Positions 4,725 to 17,887 of a stretch of DNA of 23,172 bases are shown one piece after another. Every line of letters begins with the position of its first letter. Positions within the stretch are counted from its first letter, which is position 1. The notes beneath the pieces are model-generated. The model saw nothing but the letters and a program-made list of their open reading frames with translations, ran no database searches and was not told the origin of the DNA. The DNA is from a virus. The DNA lies in the IMG/VR virus record IMGVR_UViG_3300027968_000051, positions 1 to 23,172 of that record; one strand, given 5' to 3'. The translations under genes and the position numbers were made by a program.

Positions 4725-4995
4725 GTCGGAACCAGAGGTCGAAGACATCCTGATGGAGCCGTGCTTCATTCTCCTGGCGACCGATGCGTACGCAGCAACA
4801 GCCGTGCTTCGGTGGGCTGATCGGATGGAGAAGGCCGAGCACAGGCCGGACGTTGCGGACGCAGCTCGAGCCTACGCACTGAAGATGCAACAGTTCGGTC
4901 GCGAGCACGGAACGAAGGTCTTGACGGAGATTCCGGAGATGGAGGTGCCGCACGAGCCTCCGGCCAAGCCCGTTCGGCGAGCCGTCCATGGGTGA
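4690..4995 (+). CDS. Hypothetical acidic phage protein
   Basis: ATG 4690, preceded by GAGGAGGAC, gives 101 aa and overlaps the resolvase by 35 bp and the QueE gene by 8 bp. The N-terminus is acidic and Pro/Ser-rich (about residues 1-20). A predicted helical core follows ('FILLATDAYAATAVLRWADR', 'DVADAARAYALKMQQFGREH'), then a Pro-rich basic tail. I do not recognise a domain. The open frame extends further upstream, but the strong ribosome binding site supports 4690. Confidence 0.6.
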   Translation: MPESTEEPSQPESEPEVEDILMEPCFILLATDAYAATAVLRWADRMEKAEHRPDVADAARAYALKMQQFGREHGTKVLTEIPEMEVPHEPPAKPVRRAVHG

Positions 4996-5710
4996 AATCG
5001 TCATCAACGAGATCTACGGACCGGTCCTGCAGGGAGAAGGAGCCACACGCGGTCGGCCAGCAGCGTTCGTGCGTCTCGGTCGGTGCAACCTTGCGTGCAA
5101 GTGGTGTGACACGCCGTACACGTGGGACTGGAAAGGAGCCAACGGGCAGGCTTACACACCGGCCAAAGAGCTCAAGCGCATGAGCGTCGAGGACGTAGTC
5201 GAGATCGTCCAAGGTATTCGAGCAGATCGCGTCATCATCAGTGGTGGCGAACCGATGCTGCAGCAGAAGGCCTTAGCCGAGTTTATCCTTTGTTTGCCGA
5301 CACACTCGTTCGAGATCGAGACGGCCGGAACGAGAATGCCGACACCGCTCTTTCTCGGAACACGAGCCACGGTGATAGGTCGGAAGATCTCCTACAACGT
5401 CTCACCGAAACTCGAGAATAGCGGCAACAAGAAGCTGACACGCTACAAGCCGGCCGTTCTCAAAGCACTTCGTGACCGAGGTGCAAGGTTCAAGTTCGTC
5501 GTCAACGACAAGGTGGACCTTGAAGAGGTCGACGAGATCGTCAAGGAGATCGCTATCGAACGGAGTCGTATCTGGATCATGCCTGAAGGTGTACACGTCG
5601 AGGAAGTCATCGCAAGAGCCCGACTGATCGAACCAGCCGTTCTCGACCGCGGATGGAATCTGACGCTTCGAGATCACGTATTGCTGCACGGAGACAGGAG
5701 GGGAGTGTGA
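4988..5710 (+). CDS. queE: 7-carboxy-7-deazaguanine synthase (radical SAM, QueE)
   Basis: QueE converts 6-carboxy-5,6,7,8-tetrahydropterin to 7-carboxy-7-deazaguanine, the third step towards preQ0. The 240-aa sequence opens with the family hallmark 'INEIYGPVLQGEG', followed by the radical SAM cluster motif C33-x3-C37-x2-C40 (CNLACKWC) and the 'DTPYTWDW' segment. The SAM-binding 'IISGGEP' is at about residues 83-89, with 'FEIETAGT' further on. ATG 4988 overlaps the previous gene by 8 bp, and the stop overlaps the FolE start (GTGTGA). It is the first biosynthetic gene of the cluster and probably shares its transcript. Confidence 0.93.
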   Translation: MGEIVINEIYGPVLQGEGATRGRPAAFVRLGRCNLACKWCDTPYTWDWKGANGQAYTPAKELKRMSVEDVVEIVQGIRADRVIISGGEPMLQQKALAEFILCLPTHSFEIETAGTRMPTPLFLGTRATVIGRKISYNVSPKLENSGNKKLTRYKPAVLKALRDRGARFKFVVNDKVDLEEVDEIVKEIAIERSRIWIMPEGVHVEEVIARARLIEPAVLDRGWNLTLRDHVLLHGDRRGV

Positions 5711-6282
5711 ATACAGCCGTCGAGAACGCGGTTTACGAAATGCTCGACGCAGCCGGAGTTGACTGGCAAGACGACAACTTTGCGGACACGCCAAAGAGGT
5801 TCGCTACGTGGGTCAAGCCACTTGCAGTACCGGTGGATCAGGTAACTGTCAAGGACATCCTGTCGGCCAAGTTCTCGGAAGAGCACAAGGAGATGGTAGC
5901 CGTCACGAACATTCGTGTACACGCTGCCTGTGCACATCACCTCCTACCGTTTACCGGAGTCGCGCATGTCGGGTACCTGCCTGGCAAGTACGTCGTTGGT
6001 ATCAGTAAGCTAGCGAGACTAGCCCAGTACATCGCGAACCGCTTCACGCTGCAAGAGCGCGTTACGACGCAGATCGCAGATGCGCTGATGACGCATTTGG
6101 AGGCGGACGGAGCCATCGTCGTCGTCAAAGCCGTCCACAACTGCATGGCCGTTCGCGGAGTGAGAGAGCCCTACGCAGAGACGGTAACGAGTGCAACGCG
6201 TGGACTCTTTCGAGAGAACGCCAACGGTTGCAAGACAGAGTTTCTGTCGCTCATCCCATCGACGATTGGAGGGTCGTTGTGA
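5707..6282 (+). CDS. folE: GTP cyclohydrolase I
   Basis: FolE makes 7,8-dihydroneopterin triphosphate from GTP, the entry step for 7-deazaguanine synthesis. I chose GTG 5707 because ACAGGAGGGG lies just before it and it overlaps the QueE stop by 4 bp; this gives 191 aa. Family features are clear: 'DTPKRFA', zinc ligands C75 and H78 in 'CAHHLLPFTGVAHVGYLP', 'VVGISKLARL', and the later 'NCMAVRGV' carrying the third zinc ligand. A start at 5653 is possible but lies deep inside queE. A phage copy beside queE, queC, queD and dpdA points to DNA modification, not folate supply. Confidence 0.93.
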   Translation: MNTAVENAVYEMLDAAGVDWQDDNFADTPKRFATWVKPLAVPVDQVTVKDILSAKFSEEHKEMVAVTNIRVHAACAHHLLPFTGVAHVGYLPGKYVVGISKLARLAQYIANRFTLQERVTTQIADALMTHLEADGAIVVVKAVHNCMAVRGVREPYAETVTSATRGLFRENANGCKTEFLSLIPSTIGGSL

Positions 6283-6824
6283 CTGACGAGGCGGTCGATC
6301 CGCAAGGAATGAGGCAGTACGCACCGTTCCCACACGAGCTTGCGGAGTTGGTCGAGAGACTCCGCTACCGTCCGGGCTGGACGTTCAAGCTGGCCGATAT
6401 CGAACGAGATCCCGCGGACACGCACAGTGGCAGTGCGGGCGGATTGACCTTCATCGGTCTCACTGGCGACTGGGTACGGACACCTCAAGGCGGTCGACGC
6501 TACGTTGGAGCTGAGGACGCCTACCATCCAGGTACGCCTCGCCCAGTCTACTTCTACTTCCCGGTACCTGCTGCAACTTACGACAGACAGAGCTGGCGCC
6601 GCTGGCTGTTCGACTGTCTGCTACTCGTCGAGAAGCACGAGGCCATGGAGCACTTCGCCTTCGTTACGCACGAAGACTACGAGAACGGTTTGACTGACGA
6701 GGAGTTGCCCGTCGAGCGACCGTACTCACCGACACACGGTCCGGGACGCACACCGTACATCATCTTCGAGGTGACGACGGAGGAGAACAAGCGCACCAGT
6801 TTCCGCGGGGAGGTCAACGAATGA
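6279..6824 (+). CDS. Hypothetical conserved phage protein
   Basis: GTG 6279 overlaps the FolE stop (GTGA) and has TTGGAGGG upstream; an ATG at 6309 is the alternative. The product is about 181 aa. It has a recognisable alpha/beta make-up: 'LAELVERLRYRPGWTFKLAD', 'LTFIGLTGDWVRTPQGGRRY', 'PVYFYFPVPA', then a helix 'WRRWLFDCLLLVEKHEAMEH' ending in acidic and aromatic residues. I recall similar uncharacterised proteins in actinophages, but I know of no function. Being embedded between folE and the endonuclease/dpdA pair, it could belong to the modification pathway or simply be a passenger. Confidence 0.7.
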   Translation: MTDEAVDPQGMRQYAPFPHELAELVERLRYRPGWTFKLADIERDPADTHSGSAGGLTFIGLTGDWVRTPQGGRRYVGAEDAYHPGTPRPVYFYFPVPAATYDRQSWRRWLFDCLLLVEKHEAMEHFAFVTHEDYENGLTDEELPVERPYSPTHGPGRTPYIIFEVTTEENKRTSFRGEVNE

Positions 6825-7294
6825 AGCTCGCACAACGACAATGGTTATCGGAGACTCGACGAGGTCCCGGTAATCCGATGTGGGGTCGGAAGCGCATCTT
6901 CTCTCCGGAGCATCGAGAGAAGTTGCGACAGGCTCGACTTGCACGACCGGACAGATCGGCACTTGCTCGTGCGGCTGTAGCCGCTCAACAGAGTCGCATG
7001 ACTCAAGCCGAGAAGGATGAGTGCGGGCGGCGAATGCTCCGGGCACAAGTGGCGGTCGAGACCGCTCCCGAGCGAGTTGTGCGCTTTCTGCTAGAGGCAT
7101 CTGGACGGAGATTCGAGAGGCAAAAGCCGATCGGACCGTGGCGAGTCGACTTCTACGTCTCAAGCTGCAATCTCGTCATTGAGGTCGATGGTTGGTGGCA
7201 TCAGAACACAACCGAGGTTCAAGCTCGAGACAAACGCAAAAACGCTGACCTATTGGCCCGAGGATTCAACGTCCTCCGAGTGGAGGTGGACTGA
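6821..7294 (+). CDS. NUMOD3 plus Vsr/DUF559-type endonuclease (homing-like)
   Basis: ATG 6821 overlaps the previous stop by 4 bp (ATGA). The 157-aa protein has an N-terminal NUMOD3-like DNA-binding repeat (about residues 15-42, 'GNPMWGRKRIFSPEHREKLR'). A C-terminal domain of the Vsr/DUF559 group in the PD-(D/E)XK superfamily follows: 'RVDFYVSSCNLVIEVDGWWH', then 'KRKNADLLARGFNVLRVEVD'. The acidic residues in 'VDF' and 'IEVDG' would be catalytic. NUMOD motifs mark free-standing homing endonucleases, so this is probably a mobile gene that landed in the modification operon. Its stop lies directly against the DpdA-like coding start, which may explain why that gene lacks a normal start codon. Confidence 0.72.
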   Translation: MKLAQRQWLSETRRGPGNPMWGRKRIFSPEHREKLRQARLARPDRSALARAAVAAQQSRMTQAEKDECGRRMLRAQVAVETAPERVVRFLLEASGRRFERQKPIGPWRVDFYVSSCNLVIEVDGWWHQNTTEVQARDKRKNADLLARGFNVLRVEVD

Positions 7295-7295
7295 C

Positions 7296-8120
7296 ATCAA
7301 GCTTGCCAACATCGTTCCGATTCCGCTACTCGATCGACTCCTGACGGAGGAAGACGACTACCACCTCGTCCTAGGCGATCTCATCGTCGAGAGCAAGGTG
7401 TATGCGGACTTCTACGCCGAGCGCGTCAAGCGTGGTGACTACGTCATTCTCGACACGATGGAAGCTGAGCGTCCAGGTGTCGGTACGCCGATGTCGACAA
7501 TGCAGGAGGCGATTCGGACTCTGCAACCGAGCGAGGTCGTACTTCCCGACGTCAGTGACGATGGAGAGGCTACCATCCGCCGTGCACAGGAGGGTATCGA
7601 AGCCTTTCGCGAGATCGGGTATACCGGTCCGTTCATGGCCGTTCCACACGGAGCGTCCTTCCGCGAGTACATCACCTGTGCCAAGGTTCTGTCGCAGCTT
7701 CCGGGTGTTGAGTGCCTCGGAGTCTACGAGCAGATCCAGCGCAACTTCAGCATCTCTCGTCGCGCGATGGTGTGGAGACTGTACGGTCTCTTGACCGATA
7801 CGGGAAAGCACTACACGCAGATTCACCTTCTCGGTGGAGACGAAGACTGTGAGACGCTCGTCAAGACGACACTGAGAAACATCGTCCGAGGTCAAGACTC
7901 GGCCAAGCTCACCGTGTGGGGTCTGTCCGGACAGATCGTCACTCGAACGCACATTCCGCCCTACCCTGGACGCCGATTCTTCGGTGGAGAGAAGTACTTC
8001 TACGTGCGGGAGGGGAACCTCGCGGCTGGATCGATGGATGGAGTCGAAGTAGTTCCATCGACCTACGTGGAAATAGCAAAGCAGAACATCGCCTACTGGA
8101 GGAGGTACGTAGCAGCATGA
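7296..8120 (+). CDS. dpdA: DpdA/TGT-like DNA 7-deazaguanine transglycosylase (start codon unclear)
   Basis: This protein resembles phage DpdA, relatives of tRNA-guanine transglycosylase that swap guanine in DNA for a 7-deazaguanine base. Residues below count from 7296: N-terminal 'KLANIVPIP', D53 in 'YVILDTMEAE' (position of the substrate-binding Asp), D85 in 'VVLPDVSDD', H118 in 'MAVPHGASF', and 'IHLLGGDED' at about 176-184. Homology starts at the codon ATC 7296, six bases after GGAGGTGG (7282-7289), where an ATG would be expected. The nearest normal in-frame starts are TTG 7179 and ATG 7188, over 100 bp inside the endonuclease gene. Either ATC initiates or the protein has an extended N-terminus. 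QueC, QueD, QueE and FolE nearby support the role. Confidence 0.75.
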   Translation: MKLANIVPIPLLDRLLTEEDDYHLVLGDLIVESKVYADFYAERVKRGDYVILDTMEAERPGVGTPMSTMQEAIRTLQPSEVVLPDVSDDGEATIRRAQEGIEAFREIGYTGPFMAVPHGASFREYITCAKVLSQLPGVECLGVYEQIQRNFSISRRAMVWRLYGLLTDTGKHYTQIHLLGGDEDCETLVKTTLRNIVRGQDSAKLTVWGLSGQIVTRTHIPPYPGRRFFGGEKYFYVREGNLAAGSMDGVEVVPSTYVEIAKQNIAYWRRYVAA

Positions 8121-9491: not shown

Positions 9492-10224
9492 ACCGTCAGG
9501 TCCGCGCTTTCCAGCGGTAATCATCAACGACGACGGTGTCGAAGCTCTACCGTTTCTCCTGAAGGCTCTCTATCACCTTCGAGGCTTGGTGACACCGATC
9601 GCCTTCTTCTTGCCGGATCGAGATCGGTCAGGATGCGGAGGATACATTCGAACTCGTGGAGAGCCGATTCCGTTTCATGAGGTGGACACGCCATTGACGA
9701 ACGTTCCGGTCTACGTCGTAGATGGCTATCCGGCTGAGATCGCCTACCTCGTCAAGGTGCGGTACAAGCCCACTCGAGCGCGCGTCGTCTCCATCAACCG
9801 CGGCCACAACTTCGGAACGTTCATCTTCAACAGCGGTTGCGTCATGGGAGCGGTTCAAGCCAACTGGCTCGGCTTTGCCTCACTGGCACTCAACTGGCCG
9901 GAGAAGGAGATGCCCGGACCGGCAGACGGAGCCGTACTCGCATCGCTCGTGACAAGACTGTGGACGAGTCCGGAAGAGGACATGCGCAGCTCTCTGTGGT
10001 GCGTCAACTTCCCGACCAAGTATTCCACTCCGCAGCGATTGGTACAAGTGGGTCTCAGCCGGGTTCTGCCGGTGACGTATACTAAAGTACAGATGGGTGA
10101 GTTTCGCCTTATGGATAGGTCGCTCGAGATCGGTCCCGGAGATGCTCACGACGTTCTCGAGCGGGGTGTCGCGACCGCGGTCCCGCTCAACTCCGCAACC
10201 TTCACGATGCAAGGGAGCTACTGA
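9478..10224 (+). CDS. surE-like: SurE-like nucleotidase/phosphatase
   Basis: This 248-aa protein matches the SurE 5'/3'-nucleotidase fold. It has N17-D18-D19-G20-V21 (metal-binding NDDG), S51 in 'DRDRSGCGG', and N107 in 'VVSINRGHNFG', followed by 'NSGCVMGAVQANWLGFASLA', the counterpart of the SurE 'YSGTV-AA' helix. All usual metal ligands appear present, so it should be an active phosphomonoesterase on nucleotides or similar substrates. GTG 9478 follows ACGGGAGG and overlaps the aminotransferase by 14 bp. It could remove phosphate from a pathway intermediate or alter the dGMP pool; neither is shown. The C-terminal 70 residues diverge from standard SurE. Confidence 0.82.
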   Translation: MPRTRPSGPRFPAVIINDDGVEALPFLLKALYHLRGLVTPIAFFLPDRDRSGCGGYIRTRGEPIPFHEVDTPLTNVPVYVVDGYPAEIAYLVKVRYKPTRARVVSINRGHNFGTFIFNSGCVMGAVQANWLGFASLALNWPEKEMPGPADGAVLASLVTRLWTSPEEDMRSSLWCVNFPTKYSTPQRLVQVGLSRVLPVTYTKVQMGEFRLMDRSLEIGPGDAHDVLERGVATAVPLNSATFTMQGSY

Positions 10225-10898
10225 TGTACACGTACTGGAAGGGCGAGGACCCGATGATGTTGGCGAACCTCGAGTTCGACGGAGCCAACAGCGTCATTCT
10301 CAACACGTACACGCCGAGAACTCGCGTCGCGCTATTGACGGTTTGCTCGTGGGCTAAGCCGTACAGTCAGTCGCACATCCACAGAGCCATTCGGCAGGAC
10401 CTCATGACGACTGGTCCGAAGGGCGGTCTTCTGAACCAGATCGACTACATCCACCTGTCGAGCGCAGGAGTCATTCCACACGCATGCGAGAAGTGGTACC
10501 CGTTCACGGCCTACGACTGGAACAATGCACGCGTCGATACAGAGGCTCTGACGGAGGCTCTGGAGGTGTACATTGCCGAGCGGTTGATGCGATTCGTCAA
10601 GCGGTTCGAGTCCCACTATAGCCACTGGGTGACCTACTTCCGTGGAAACTCCACGACGTCGAAAGCCATTCTCCGCGTTCAGGAGCAGCTTCCACTGACG
10701 CGCTCACAGCCGTACATCGGTTCACCGGCAGAGGTCATCTGGCGAAACGTCTTCGTCTCATCACGCATCTCAGCCGATATGACCGTCCGTGAGAGTCTCC
10801 TATCCGGCTACTGCGACCCAGACGTTGCGCTAACCCTACCCGTCAATCTGGATCAGCTCCAGGCAACCCTGAAGGAGGTACTTGATGTACAAGAGTAG
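10224..10898 (+). CDS. ArcS-like (archaeosine synthase core, DUF5591-type) protein
   Basis: This 224-aa protein contains 'LLTVCSWAKPYSQSHIHRAI', with C41, K45-P46-Y47, S50 and H53. It matches the archaeosine synthase signature C-x3-KPY-x2-S-x2-H exactly. In Archaea, ArcS is a larger multidomain protein that adds lysine to the nitrile of preQ0 in tRNA. Only the catalytic core is present here, without PUA or TGT-like domains. A 'YIHLSSAGVIPHACEKWYPF' segment follows, typical of the core. ATG 10224 shares one base with the SurE stop (TGATG), and the end overlaps queC. Its place between dpdA and queC suggests it acts on preQ0, free or in DNA, to make an amidine-type or amino-acid adduct (inference). 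Confidence 0.72.
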   Translation: MYTYWKGEDPMMLANLEFDGANSVILNTYTPRTRVALLTVCSWAKPYSQSHIHRAIRQDLMTTGPKGGLLNQIDYIHLSSAGVIPHACEKWYPFTAYDWNNARVDTEALTEALEVYIAERLMRFVKRFESHYSHWVTYFRGNSTTSKAILRVQEQLPLTRSQPYIGSPAEVIWRNVFVSSRISADMTVRESLLSGYCDPDVALTLPVNLDQLQATLKEVLDVQE

Positions 10899-11577
10899 CG
10901 TCGTCATTTGCAGTGGCGGGATGGACTCCGTCACGCTGGCGTATGAAGAGGCTCGACGAGGGAAAATCCAGCTTCTCTCGTTTGACTACGGTCAGAGACA
11001 CAAGAAGGAGCTCGAGTGTGCGCGGATGTGCGCTGAGGACCTCAACGTTCCGTGGGAAGTTGTTGACTTGACGTCGCTTGGTCGTTTGCTTCACGGCTCG
11101 TCGCTATCCGATCGTCGAGTAGACGTACCGGACGGACACTACTCCGCACAATCGATGAAGCTGACGATCGTACCGAACCGCAACTCGATTATGCTCAACT
11201 GTGCGGTTGGGGTCGCTATCGGAACCGGGGCGGAAGTCGTCTACACGGCAGTGCACAGTGGAGATAGAGCCATTTATCCCGACTGTCGAGAAGAGTTTGT
11301 TCGAGCGCTCAATCAACTCATTCGCGTCGCGACTGAAACGAGCGTTCGCGTGGAGGCTCCCTTCGTAAACGTGACGAAGGCGGATATCGCCTCGATCGGC
11401 AACAGATTGGGAGTCGACTGGACGAGAACGTGGTCCTGCTACAAAGGCGGAGAGATCCACTGCGGACGTTGCGGCACGTGTACCGAGAGACAAGAGGCGT
11501 TCCATCTGGCCGGGGTTGAGGATCCCACTCCGTACGAGGATGCAGAGTTCTGGAAGACCGCAGAGGCGAACGCATGA
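10885..11577 (+). CDS. queC: 7-cyano-7-deazaguanine synthase (QueC)
   Basis: QueC uses ATP and ammonia to turn 7-carboxy-7-deazaguanine into preQ0. The 230-aa sequence has the PP-loop 'SGGMDS' at residues 10-15, 'LSFDYGQRHKKELECA', 'VPNRNSIMLNCA' and 'HSGDRAIYPDCREEF'. The zinc site is C185-x7-C193-x2-C196-x2-C199, as in bacterial QueC. No glutamine amidotransferase domain is fused, so it is not the Gat-QueC form that makes archaeosine precursors. ATG 10885 is preceded by GAAGGAGG; TTG 10882 is an alternative. It overlaps the ArcS-like gene by 14 bp, showing translational coupling. Confidence 0.95.
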   Translation: MYKSSVVICSGGMDSVTLAYEEARRGKIQLLSFDYGQRHKKELECARMCAEDLNVPWEVVDLTSLGRLLHGSSLSDRRVDVPDGHYSAQSMKLTIVPNRNSIMLNCAVGVAIGTGAEVVYTAVHSGDRAIYPDCREEFVRALNQLIRVATETSVRVEAPFVNVTKADIASIGNRLGVDWTRTWSCYKGGEIHCGRCGTCTERQEAFHLAGVEDPTPYEDAEFWKTAEANA

Positions 11578-11903
11578 AGTTGCGATCGGGATTCTGCCAG
11601 AATCCAGAGTGTCGCTGGCTCGGTGAGTGTCCGGTCTTGCTACCGGAACACATGATTCCGAAATGGCACTTCAAAGCCGGACTCGCTAAGGGTGATCCGA
11701 CAGATCCGTCTAACATTGAGTGGTGGTGTCCGACTTGTGCGCGGATCAAGACTCGCGCTGAGCAGCGTACGGACGAGTATCGAGAGTACGTTCGGACCTG
11801 GGGTACCGGCAGGAGACACCACGCGGACTCGATCGAGAAGGTAAGAGCATCGGCTCTTGCAAGGGAGGCTCGGTGGAGAGTATCTGGAGTTCGACATGAC
11901 TGA
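11574..11903 (+). CDS. HNH endonuclease 1
   Basis: ATG 11574 overlaps the queC stop (ATGA) and gives 109 aa. The HNH fold is visible as 'CQNPEC', then 'EHMIPKWHFKAGLAKGDP', 'DPSNIEWWCPTCARIKT', with paired Cys residues for structural zinc and the central His/Asn. A basic C-terminal stretch ('GRRHHADSIEKVRASAL') resembles a shortened NUMOD-type DNA-binding tail. It is clearly related to the endonuclease at 12564-12959: both read '(H)xxPxWxFKxGLxxGDPTDPxN'. It is probably a free-standing homing endonuclease in the modification operon. Confidence 0.78.
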   Translation: MKLRSGFCQNPECRWLGECPVLLPEHMIPKWHFKAGLAKGDPTDPSNIEWWCPTCARIKTRAEQRTDEYREYVRTWGTGRRHHADSIEKVRASALAREARWRVSGVRHD

Positions 11904-12267
11904 GAGGTTGAGCGAGCAGCTGCCGGTCCAGCCGTCTGAGACACACAAGTGGGCGGCTTGGTGCTCACAGCACACAAGTCACCCGATCGACTGCTTCTGG
12001 GAGCATCACCCGGAGGTGTGCGAGGAACACCACAAACTACAATGTGAGGAGTGTCATGGAATCCGAATCCGAGTCCCAACCGCAGTCGAGCGACACGAAC
12101 GAATTCAAGCGCAACGCGAGACCGCTAGTGTCGATCAGCAAGGAAGTGGAGTTCGATGCGGGACATCGAGTTCCGGCACACAAGAGCAAGTGTCGGAACC
12201 CACACGGCCATCGCTACCGGGTTCGGGTCCTGTGCGAGGGAGTGATCCAACCGACAGATGCGGGTAG
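11896..12267 (+). CDS. Possible small Cys/His-rich protein overlapping queD
   Basis: ATG 11896 is six bases after GGAG (11886-11889), overlaps HNH 1 by 8 bp, and opens a frame that fills the otherwise empty gap before queD. The first 55 residues have a zinc-site look: 'WAAWCSQHTSH', 'DCFWEHHPEVCEEHH', 'LQCEECHG'. The frame continues 212 bp into queD and there looks like a shadow of it (Ser/Gly/Arg-rich). Either a real gene runs on inside queD or the expressed product is different from the open frame. I do not recognise it. Confidence 0.4.
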   Translation: MTERLSEQLPVQPSETHKWAAWCSQHTSHPIDCFWEHHPEVCEEHHKLQCEECHGIRIRVPTAVERHERIQAQRETASVDQQGSGVRCGTSSSGTQEQVSEPTRPSLPGSGPVRGSDPTDRCG

Positions 12268-12571
12268 CACAGGTGGCATGCTCGTCGACTTCGGAGACCT
12301 GAAGTACTTCCTCCAGACGCTGGCTGGACTACTCGACCACGCCATGATCATCTGGAAGGGTGATGACGAGCTGCTCGAAGCCTTTAGAGGTCACGACTGG
12401 AACACGGCCGTCTTCGAATACGTGCCAACGGCCGAGAACATCGCTCGCTGGTTCTACGACGAGTTGTCAAGAAGCGTCAACGCTCGCTACGTCAACGACT
12501 TGCGCGTCTCCGGTGTCAGTGTGTGGGAGACGCCGACGAGCTGTGCGCACTATCGAGGCGATCGTGGCTGA
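12056..12571 (+). CDS. queD: 6-carboxy-5,6,7,8-tetrahydropterin synthase (QueD)
   Basis: QueD turns dihydroneopterin triphosphate (the FolE product) into 6-carboxytetrahydropterin, the QueE substrate. In the 171-aa protein the zinc histidines are H37 in 'FDAGHRV' and H50/H52 in 'CRNPHGHRYRV', with catalytic C46. 'GMLVDFGDLK', 'LLDHAMII' and 'PTAENIARWFYDEL' follow in the family order. ATG 12056 has GAGGA five bases upstream; GTG 12044 is an alternative. The first 24 residues are Ser/Glu-rich and outside the family core. With FolE, QueE and QueC this completes the preQ0 pathway in about 7.6 kb. Confidence 0.93.
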   Translation: MESESESQPQSSDTNEFKRNARPLVSISKEVEFDAGHRVPAHKSKCRNPHGHRYRVRVLCEGVIQPTDAGSTGGMLVDFGDLKYFLQTLAGLLDHAMIIWKGDDELLEAFRGHDWNTAVFEYVPTAENIARWFYDELSRSVNARYVNDLRVSGVSVWETPTSCAHYRGDRG

Positions 12572-12959
12572 CCACACGATCTCCGGTGACTGTGCAATCT
12601 GCGGCATCTACCGGTACTCGCTCCACAGAGATCACATCGTACCGAGATGGAAGTTCAAGTACGGTCTGGTTGAGGGAGACCCGACAGACCCGGCGAACTT
12701 CCAGTACCTGTGTGCCAACTGCCACGAAGACAAGACCCGAGAGGAGTTCTTGTCTGACGAGTACCGAAGAATCGCGGTCGCTCGAGTCGGTCTCTACACG
12801 GATGAGTACCGAGAGCGACAGCGTCAGGACCGTCTCGGAAAACAACACACGTCGGAAGCAAGAGCCAAGATCGGTGCGTATGCACGCAACCGTCCACCGG
12901 AAGTTCGAGAGAAGTTGCGGCAAGGTGCACTCAAACAACATCGAGGAGGGATCGTATGA
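12564..12959 (+). CDS. HNH endonuclease 2 with NUMOD3-like tail
   Basis: GTG 12564, five bases after GAGG, overlaps queD by 8 bp and yields 131 aa; GTG 12543 is possible. The HNH part has 'CAICGIYRYSLHRDHIVPRW' (D-H pair), 'GDPTDPANFQYLCANCHEDK' and zinc cysteine pairs. The C-terminus carries NUMOD3-like repeats ('GKQHTSEARAKIGAYARN', 'PEVREKLRQGALKQH'), a homing-endonuclease DNA-binding element. It is a paralogue of HNH 1 about 1 kb upstream, so the two flank the Cys/His ORF and queD. Probably a mobile gene that does not take part in the pathway. Confidence 0.78.
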   Translation: MADHTISGDCAICGIYRYSLHRDHIVPRWKFKYGLVEGDPTDPANFQYLCANCHEDKTREEFLSDEYRRIAVARVGLYTDEYRERQRQDRLGKQHTSEARAKIGAYARNRPPEVREKLRQGALKQHRGGIV

Positions 12960-16658: not shown

Positions 16659-17126
16659 GTGGGAGCAACAGACCGCAAGAAGCTCATCAAGACGGGGGAG
16701 AAACTTCTCTCGGGACCGACGCCGACGGATCGAGCGGGCATGCTCAGCCTATGCGAGGATCTTCTCAACACGGCACAGGAGATCGTTGACGACTTCGAAG
16801 AGCAACGAGACAACTTCGGTACAGCGTCCGGTCTTCTCGAGTCGTGGGAGGAGAACTACGGTTGTCAGCAAGACGGTTGGGACTCCGCCGTTGTGAGTCT
16901 CGACGACATCAAGTCTCGTCTTGAGGAGGCGGAAGAGACGCAAATGGTGCGGTGCACACTGTGTGGTGGGGAGGGCACGCTCGAGACAACACTCGAGACT
17001 GATGAAGAACCGACGGAGTGCACACAGTGCGGAGGCACGGGTGAGATCGAAGAGGAGGTCGAGTTCGACCCGCACGTAGCCTTCGAGGAGATCGAGTCCG
17101 CCTGGCAAGAGGGAGTGACACAATAG
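16659..17126 (+). CDS. Acidic protein with DnaJ-like double zinc motif
   Basis: GTG 16659 follows AGAGAGGAAG and gives 155 aa. The first half is helical and acidic ('LLNTAQEIVDDFEEQRDNF'). The second half has two CxxCGGxG knuckles: C99-x2-C102-GGEG and C121-x2-C124-GGTG, 19 residues apart, as in the zinc-binding repeats of DnaJ and related RNA- or protein-binding modules. A strongly acidic C-terminus (EIEEEVEFD) follows. The lack of a J-domain means it is not DnaJ itself. The stop shares one base with the next start (TAGTG). Role unknown. Confidence 0.68.
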   Translation: MGATDRKKLIKTGEKLLSGPTPTDRAGMLSLCEDLLNTAQEIVDDFEEQRDNFGTASGLLESWEENYGCQQDGWDSAVVSLDDIKSRLEEAEETQMVRCTLCGGEGTLETTLETDEEPTECTQCGGTGEIEEEVEFDPHVAFEEIESAWQEGVTQ

Positions 17127-17887
17127 TGGACGAGGACTATCTCAAGTCGCTCATCGACCGCGTACGTCCGCACACGATGGTGTGGCCGGCCTCACTGCAC
17201 TCGCTAGCCCATCTCGTCGAGTACGTCCTCGATCACGACATACCCGGAGACTTCGTTGAGTGCGGAACGTGGAAGGGCGGTTGCTCGTTTCTCATTGCAG
17301 ACATCCTCAAGCACCGGGGAGTGGAACCGAAGGAGCGATTGGTCTGGATGTTCGACTCGTTCGAGGGTATGCCGGCACCAACGCCAGTAGACGGCGAGCG
17401 AGCTCAGCGATTCGTGCGTGAGACGGACAGTCCGCGTTACTACGACAACTACAAGGCCGAGATCGGAGAGGTAGTCGCCGCAGCTCGAGCACTCGGTCTG
17501 CGACTGTGGCTCCTTCCGGTCAAGGGCTGGTTCAACGAGACGCTTCCGAACTGGAGTGAACGCACGGCAAATCGACCGATCGCTCTTCTACGTGTCGACT
17601 GCGACTGGTACGAGAGTGTCTCCTGTGCACTGTCGAACTTGCGCGGCTTCGTTGCTCCCGGTGGCTTCATCGTCCTTGACGACTACTACTGGTTCGAGGG
17701 AGCTCGAAAGGCCTTTGAGGACTTCCGTCCGTGGACGGGTTGGTCTGGTGTGCACAGTGTCTACTCGGCGTCAGCTAGTAGTCTCACGGCAGAGAGCGCG
17801 TGGATTCAGCGAGTCAAGGAGACACCGAGGGACTTCGACCCGCGCACGTCGATTTACGTAGAGCCCCAGGAAAAAGTCGAGTTATAA
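17126..17887 (+). CDS. TylF/macrocin O-methyltransferase-like SAM methyltransferase
   Basis: This 253-aa protein follows the TylF (macrocin O-methyltransferase) layout of class I SAM enzymes: 'PGDFVECGTWKGGCSFLIAD' at 40-59 (SAM loop), 'VWMFDSFEGMPAPTP', 'VKGWFNETLP', D158-C-D160 in 'LLRVDCDWYES', and 'GGFIVLDDYYWFEGARKAFE' with D185/D186 as likely metal ligands. Characterised members methylate sugar hydroxyls. In a phage the target could be a glycan, a nucleotide sugar or a modified base; the sequence does not decide. GTG 17126 overlaps the preceding stop by one base. It ends the rightward block before a probable new promoter. Confidence 0.8.
   Translation: MDEDYLKSLIDRVRPHTMVWPASLHSLAHLVEYVLDHDIPGDFVECGTWKGGCSFLIADILKHRGVEPKERLVWMFDSFEGMPAPTPVDGERAQRFVRETDSPRYYDNYKAEIGEVVAAARALGLRLWLLPVKGWFNETLPNWSERTANRPIALLRVDCDWYESVSCALSNLRGFVAPGGFIVLDDYYWFEGARKAFEDFRPWTGWSGVHSVYSASASSLTAESAWIQRVKETPRDFDPRTSIYVEPQEKVEL

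Follow-up and report, generated by a model that had tools for sequence, protein, structure and literature searches.

A preQ0 cassette with an aminotransferase, a phosphatase and an ArcS core

The window analyzed here is an entire IMG/VR record (IMGVR_UViG_3300027968_000051), a 23,172-base virus contig that is probably a fragment. This one record holds a full preQ0 gene set together with a DpdA of the TGT fold, and between DpdA and QueC it carries a class III aminotransferase, a SurE-like phosphatase and a stand-alone ArcS core (Table 1). The open reading frames of the last three genes and QueC overlap in series. For instance, the SurE stop codon and the ArcS start codon have one base in common (TGATG at 10222-10226), and the QueC ATG (10885) lies inside the ArcS frame, which ends at 10898. 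The initial annotation had placed the ArcS core in a phage modification operon, overlapping queC and a SurE-like gene; the overlaps are as it described, and the setting is an operon with preQ0 genes and DpdA. No terminator-like sites were found at the junctions from the aminotransferase through SurE and ArcS to QueC. The sole weak plus-strand match is at 9588, within SurE, and shuffled sequence gives more such matches.

Table 1. Genes of the preQ0 cassette and the partners of ArcS in the window
Feature	Position	Strand	Basis
QueE (7-carboxy-7-deazaguanine synthase)	4988..5710	+	phrog_2076, E 3.9e-50
FolE (GTP cyclohydrolase I)	5653..6282	+	PF01227, E 4.9e-56
DpdA-type DNA guanine transglycosylase (predicted)	7194..8120	+	Fold match to TGT; que/PolA neighborhoods of relatives
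Class III aminotransferase, ArgD-like, 395 aa	8304..9491	+	PF00202, E 1.4e-35
SurE-like phosphatase, 248 aa	9478..10224	+	PF01975, E 4.6e-18
Stand-alone ArcS catalytic core (DUF5591)	10224..10898	+	224 aa, frame uninterrupted
QueC (preQ0 synthase)	10885..11577	+	PF06508, E 2.9e-62
QueD (6-carboxy-tetrahydropterin synthase)	12044..12571	+	PF01242, E 3.6e-32

The window also contains several other frames. A DUF559/Vsr-like endonuclease frame (6821-7294; PF04480, E 1.2e-12) overlaps the start of the DpdA frame and is perhaps a homing-type endonuclease inserted into the cassette. Two similar HNH-like frames, recognized by eye at 11574-11903 and about 12560-12959, lie on either side of QueD; both have a His-Ile/Met-Val/Ile-Pro-Arg/Lys-Trp-x-Phe-Lys stretch, and the pair suggests homing endonucleases inside the cassette. 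Downstream of PolA, a TylF-type O-methyltransferase (17126-17887; PF05711, E 1.8e-38) could methylate a hydroxylated base side chain, or could be unrelated.

The 224-aa protein is an ArcS core

The protein matches PF17884 (DUF5591) at E 6.1e-11, scoring 42.8 bits where the curated cut-off is 26. Its residues 41-53 read CSWAKPYSQSHIH, fitting C41-x3-K45-P-Y-x2-S50-x2-H53. This motif occurs once in all six frames of the window; for seven fixed residues and a uniform composition, our own arithmetic gives a chance expectation of about 4e-5 occurrences. Across 26 aligned cores, C41, K45, P46, Y47, G82, P85, F94, A96-W99, R120 and Y132 are invariant and the motif Ser is nearly so. The profile of these cores gave one good match among solved structures, 2q07 (AF0587; E 6.8e-13). 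The wider PF17884 and 2q07 profile matches do not depend on the motif.

The AlphaFold model of the protein (pTM 0.78) superposes on 2q07 with a Z score of 16.4 (rmsd 2.7 over 139 residues), the next-best row having a Z of 7.5, and Foldseek returned the same structure with an E of 2e-6. UDG-like and cutinase-like folds appeared in the structure search only at Z under 8. The NCBIfam ArcS equivalog scored 33 bits, far below its cut-off of 440, and its match is confined to the core region, so the window protein corresponds to the ArcS core and not to a full archaeosine synthase. We are almost certain of the identification as an ArcS core. The initial annotation had proposed as much from an exact ArcS signature, with the rest of the archaeal protein missing, and the family search and structural superposition that it called for both bear this out.

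The aminotransferase and phosphatase of the window

The aminotransferase scores well above the PF00202 cut-off (123 against 30.5 bits) and most closely resembles argD (E 4.3e-37); the families nearest to it, argD and putrescine aminotransferase, act on terminal amines. Its PLP-binding residues Asp222 and Lys252 are retained, and they are invariant across five aligned phage aminotransferases. The SurE-like protein exceeds the PF01975 cut-off (66.1 against 22.1 bits), matches SurE structures in the PDB at 2e-8 and retains NDDG (17-20), Ser51 of DRSG and Asn107 of INRG. A tblastn search of the phage collection returned no relatives of this SurE.

DpdA

Pfam and NCBIfam gave no family name for the DpdA frame. 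Its AlphaFold model, built on 16 sequences, has a pTM of 0.82, and the best PDB matches of the model are TGT (Foldseek E about 2e-8, Z about 18), with the preQ1 and preQ0 complexes of TGT at the top of the fold search. The true start is probably near 7290; the model is unreliable over its first 32 residues. D87, D119 and D235 are invariant in 16 relatives. Relatives were found in Cellulophaga phage phiST, in Weizmannia phage Youna2 and at 16 IMG/VR loci, mostly as neighbors of QueD, QueE, FolE, QueC and PolA. The modeled TGT fold with its catalytic Asp and the que-gene context point to a DNA transglycosylase.

Neither ArcS nor a window-type aminotransferase was found at any of the 16 other loci bearing a window-type DpdA, so the trio of aminotransferase, phosphatase and ArcS is an extension of an otherwise ordinary preQ0 cassette. 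At two loci, L036:8848-10290 and L038:10027-12042, QueC matches beside a window-type DpdA lie within much longer frames (480 and 671 aa). These may be Gat-QueC-like proteins, which would produce dG+.

The same module in other phages

Single-sequence scans of IMG/VR with ArcS, the aminotransferase and DpdA gave no matches, and alignment-based scans were required. Six phage lineages carry the canonical ArcS motif: the window, the Synechococcus phages Ssp-JY38 and Yong-L2-223 (L001/L002), L006, L007, L008 and L055. In all six lineages the gene immediately upstream of ArcS encodes a PLP enzyme (in the window, with SurE in between), and in five of them the ArcS gene either adjoins or includes a phosphatase belonging to one of two unrelated families; this is a small sample, in which the window and three IMG/VR relatives are probably fragments and the closely related L001 and L006-L008 are not fully independent cases. 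DpdA is present in all six. A scan of a plasmid collection turned up only a haloarchaeal ArcS.

The partners themselves differ. The phosphatase is SurE in the window, whereas in L001 and L006-L008 it is a HAD domain that forms the N-terminal part of a fusion with ArcS, and no SurE was found in the contigs of L006-L008 and L055. The PLP enzyme is a class III aminotransferase or, in L055, an unrelated enzyme of the HisC/CobD type. The initial annotation did not contain this partnership of aminotransferase and phosphatase with swapped partners, which we regard as the informative feature of the locus.

Ssp-JY38 and Yong-L2-223 both carry the ArcS core (40% over 115 residues). In Ssp-JY38 a class III aminotransferase, the HAD-ArcS fusion and an RpiB-type isomerase directly adjoin in that order; in Yong-L2-223 the annotated ArcS gene start is 24 codons later. 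The isomerase (L001:15486-15929; PF02502, E 1e-39) is of the RpiB/LacAB sugar-phosphate type and might supply a sugar phosphate to the aminotransferase. The order in L006, L007 and L008, all from IMG/VR, is QueE, QueC, aminotransferase, HAD-ArcS fusion, QueD, FolE and DpdA. Aligned across the four lineages, the N-terminal domain of the fusion retains DxDGT, S/T, K and D, and its similarity to HAD proteins is weak (2obb, E 0.0024; phrog_1238, E 2e-11). A reading of the N-terminus of the Synechococcus fusion as SurE was rejected on these HAD motifs and matches.

In L055 the order is QueC, HisC/CobD-type PLP enzyme, ArcS, a dNMP kinase-like gene, a window-type DpdA, a dUTPase-like gene and PolA, and a HAD phosphatase sits 5 kb from ArcS, beyond PolA. 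The kinase gene (L055:8534-9148) is dTMP-kinase/dNK-like. Away from the que genes, the same contig carries glycosyltransferases, a sugar aminotransferase, an epimerase and a radical SAM protein (L056:11442-18460; named by eye). This second radical SAM protein was not counted as RaSEA, given its place among sugar-type genes.

An alignment of window-type and Synechococcus-type DpdA with hhalign gave no confident match (probability 0.6%), so the TGT fold was settled by the fold search instead.

The six phage cores have a C-terminal motif, D-P/I-D-x2-L-x4-N-L-x2-L (DPDVALTLPVNLDQL in the window), that is missing from archaeal cores. In the tree the six cluster together (support 94/67, recovered in 95% of bootstrap trees), although the window branch is long. 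The ArcS of Vibrio phage nt-1, in which Arg replaces Lys45 and Trp replaces His53, was placed outside this group.

A further stand-alone core, with the motif His changed to Gly, occurs on a Defluviitaleaceae MAG contig (L031:3816-11811). By eye, its neighbors are a carbamoyltransferase, a glycosyltransferase, a methyltransferase, a PIG-L deacetylase and an ABC exporter, followed by QueC, QueD, QueE and FolE. The block is possibly a 7-deazaguanine natural-product cluster.

A proposed pathway to a decorated 7-deazaguanine

The repetition of the grouping with unrelated partners suggests that a small amine is built and then attached to a modified guanine in DNA. Serine and histidinol are both made by a PLP transaminase and then a phosphatase, and the known relatives of the HisC/CobD-type enzyme of L055 use phosphorylated substrates. 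These two points lead us to propose that ArcS attaches an amine synthesized by its partners.

ArcS of T. kodakarensis joins lysine to the preQ0 nitrile in tRNA and in preQ0 nucleotides but does not modify the free base; good activity requires a 5'-phosphate, as in preQ0 nucleoside 5'-monophosphate (PMC11298593). Archaeosine is formed from the lysine adduct by RaSEA, and TGT cannot exchange the adduct back (PMC11298593). The first of these results disfavors a route through free preQ0, which the initial annotation had offered as one of two substrates. Its more general suggestion, that the core attaches an amine to preQ0, is still the best guess, and we consider amine-to-nitrile chemistry by the phage ArcS likely. 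Given the phage context with DpdA, the window protein probably acts on DNA, unlike archaeal ArcS.

In the scheme that we favor, FolE, QueD, QueE and QueC would make preQ0, and the TGT-fold DpdA would swap DNA guanine for it. The aminotransferase would transaminate a phosphorylated aldehyde or ketone, and SurE (or HAD) would strip the phosphate to leave a free amine. The ArcS core would then add this amine to the preQ0 nitrile, probably once the base is in DNA, to yield an N-substituted amidine. We found no RaSEA-like enzyme either in the window, a probable fragment, or in the two complete Synechococcus phages. A Radical_SAM scan recovered QueE as the only radical SAM protein in all three, so the amidine adduct would probably be retained as the final base.

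The scheme builds on the enzyme identities, folds, gene coupling and module conservation that we observe, and from these we infer in what order the reactions run, what sort of amine is made, that ArcS acts at the DNA level and what base results. We judge the full scheme, in which a phage-made amine is joined to preQ0 to give decorated 7-deazaguanine DNA, to be evenly poised. The product would be a new class of DNA base, a 7-deazaguanine N-substituted amidine whose amine (an amino alcohol, amino polyol or amino acid) is phage-made by interchangeable PLP enzymes and phosphatases; we hold this class tentatively, at slightly less than even weight.

Several points count against the scheme. ArcS of T. 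kodakarensis depends on its RaSEA partner for activity, so a stand-alone core may likewise require a partner of some other kind. SurE enzymes are known best as nucleotidases, so the phosphatase may target nucleotides instead, and the usual substrates of ArgD-like enzymes are unphosphorylated semialdehydes. Further, the HAD phosphatase of L055 is not beside ArcS, and nt-1 has an ArcS with neither partner nearby.

Alternative explanations

The ArcS core may just make archaeosine (dG+) in DNA from host lysine, glutamine or ammonia, with the aminotransferase and phosphatase boosting the amino-acid supply. An archaeosine route for ArcS-bearing phages was proposed in 2019, and the DNA of nt-1, which has an ArcS homologue, contains dPreQ0, dADG and dG+ (PMC6884629). 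M. jannaschii ArcS has been reported to use ammonia, Gln or Asn, in which case a custom amine would be unnecessary, and an ArgD-like aminotransferase could yield an ornithine- or lysine-like amine. However, nt-1 is a poor guide because its ArcS has lost the motif Lys and His, and the window and the complete Synechococcus phages yielded no candidate for RaSEA. The archaeosine route also leaves unexplained both the HAD-ArcS fusion and the recurrence of a PLP enzyme and a phosphatase from unrelated families, and we consider it unlikely.

Alternatively, the base could be built on a mononucleotide, with ArcS acting on a 5'-phosphorylated preQ0 nucleotide and SurE or HAD, together with the dNMP kinase of L055, controlling phosphorylation. 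SurE belongs to a 5'/3'-nucleotidase family, the L055 kinase gene lies between ArcS and DpdA, and T. kodakarensis ArcS is good on preQ0 nucleoside 5'-monophosphate (PMC11298593), although the reported nucleotide Km is high (433 uM). With DpdA in all six lineages a nucleotide route is unnecessary, and the PLP enzyme is left without a role, which makes this reading quite improbable.

It is very doubtful that ArcS adds lysine or a diamine whose far end the aminotransferase then reworks on DNA, the phosphatase being separate: lysine is a substrate of T. kodakarensis ArcS and the aminotransferase is nearest to terminal-amine families, but the HisC/CobD-type enzyme of L055 is better suited to small phosphorylated substrates than to a side chain on DNA, and the phosphatase has no role.

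Construction of an amine by the partners and its attachment by ArcS is thus the reading that we prefer. The module occurs in two sequenced Synechococcus phages, one of which has a named host strain (PCC 7002), and this allows a direct check of the prediction by mass spectrometry.

Comparison with known systems

Archaeal ArcS (T. kodakarensis, H. volcanii and M. jannaschii) shares with the window protein the DUF5591 core, the C-x3-K-P-Y-x2-S-x2-H motif, the AF0587 (2q07) core fold and an association with preQ0 and a TGT-family enzyme. The window protein is shorter (224 aa, compared with about 430 aa or more) and is missing the other domains, including the TGT-like one at the N-terminus; it also differs in its own C-terminal motif, in its coupling to a PLP enzyme and a phosphatase, and in that a RaSEA partner was not found.

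Stand-alone phage ArcS is already known from nt-1, where its role was called unclear in 2019 (PMC6884629). The nt-1 protein (226 aa) is likewise a stand-alone core and adjoins QueD and FolE. It is only 25% identical to the window core, carries the Lys-to-Arg and His-to-Trp changes, and has no recognized aminotransferase or phosphatase near it. What looks new here is the company of ArcS, that is, the aminotransferase-phosphatase-ArcS module; we found no literature on this module or on these Synechococcus phages, within an incomplete coverage. If the proposal is true, it gives phage ArcS homologues a testable function, and an enzyme that forms amidines from amines and nitriles would be useful as a catalyst.

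The cassettes of phiST, Youna2 and similar phages (FolE-QueD-QueE-(QueC)-DpdA-PolA) resemble the window in DpdA family, preQ0 genes and PolA neighborhood, but none has ArcS with an aminotransferase and a phosphatase. The SerC-SerB and HisC-histidinol phosphatase pathways likewise pass from PLP transamination of a phosphorylated carbonyl to a phosphatase. This is an analogy of pathway logic only, because the class III aminotransferase and SurE belong to other families.

To our knowledge, phage 7-deazaguanine bases so far carry only small groups (cyano, amide, aminomethyl, formamidine or carboxy) or none. In the thymine hypermodifications of phages such as ViI, M6 and SP-10, phage-made amine side chains are placed on a modified DNA base after replication; the base is different and the enzymes are unrelated to those of the window. 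If our proposal is true, the module would give rise to DNA bases that are bulkier and tunable, a family on a par with these thymine hypermodifications.
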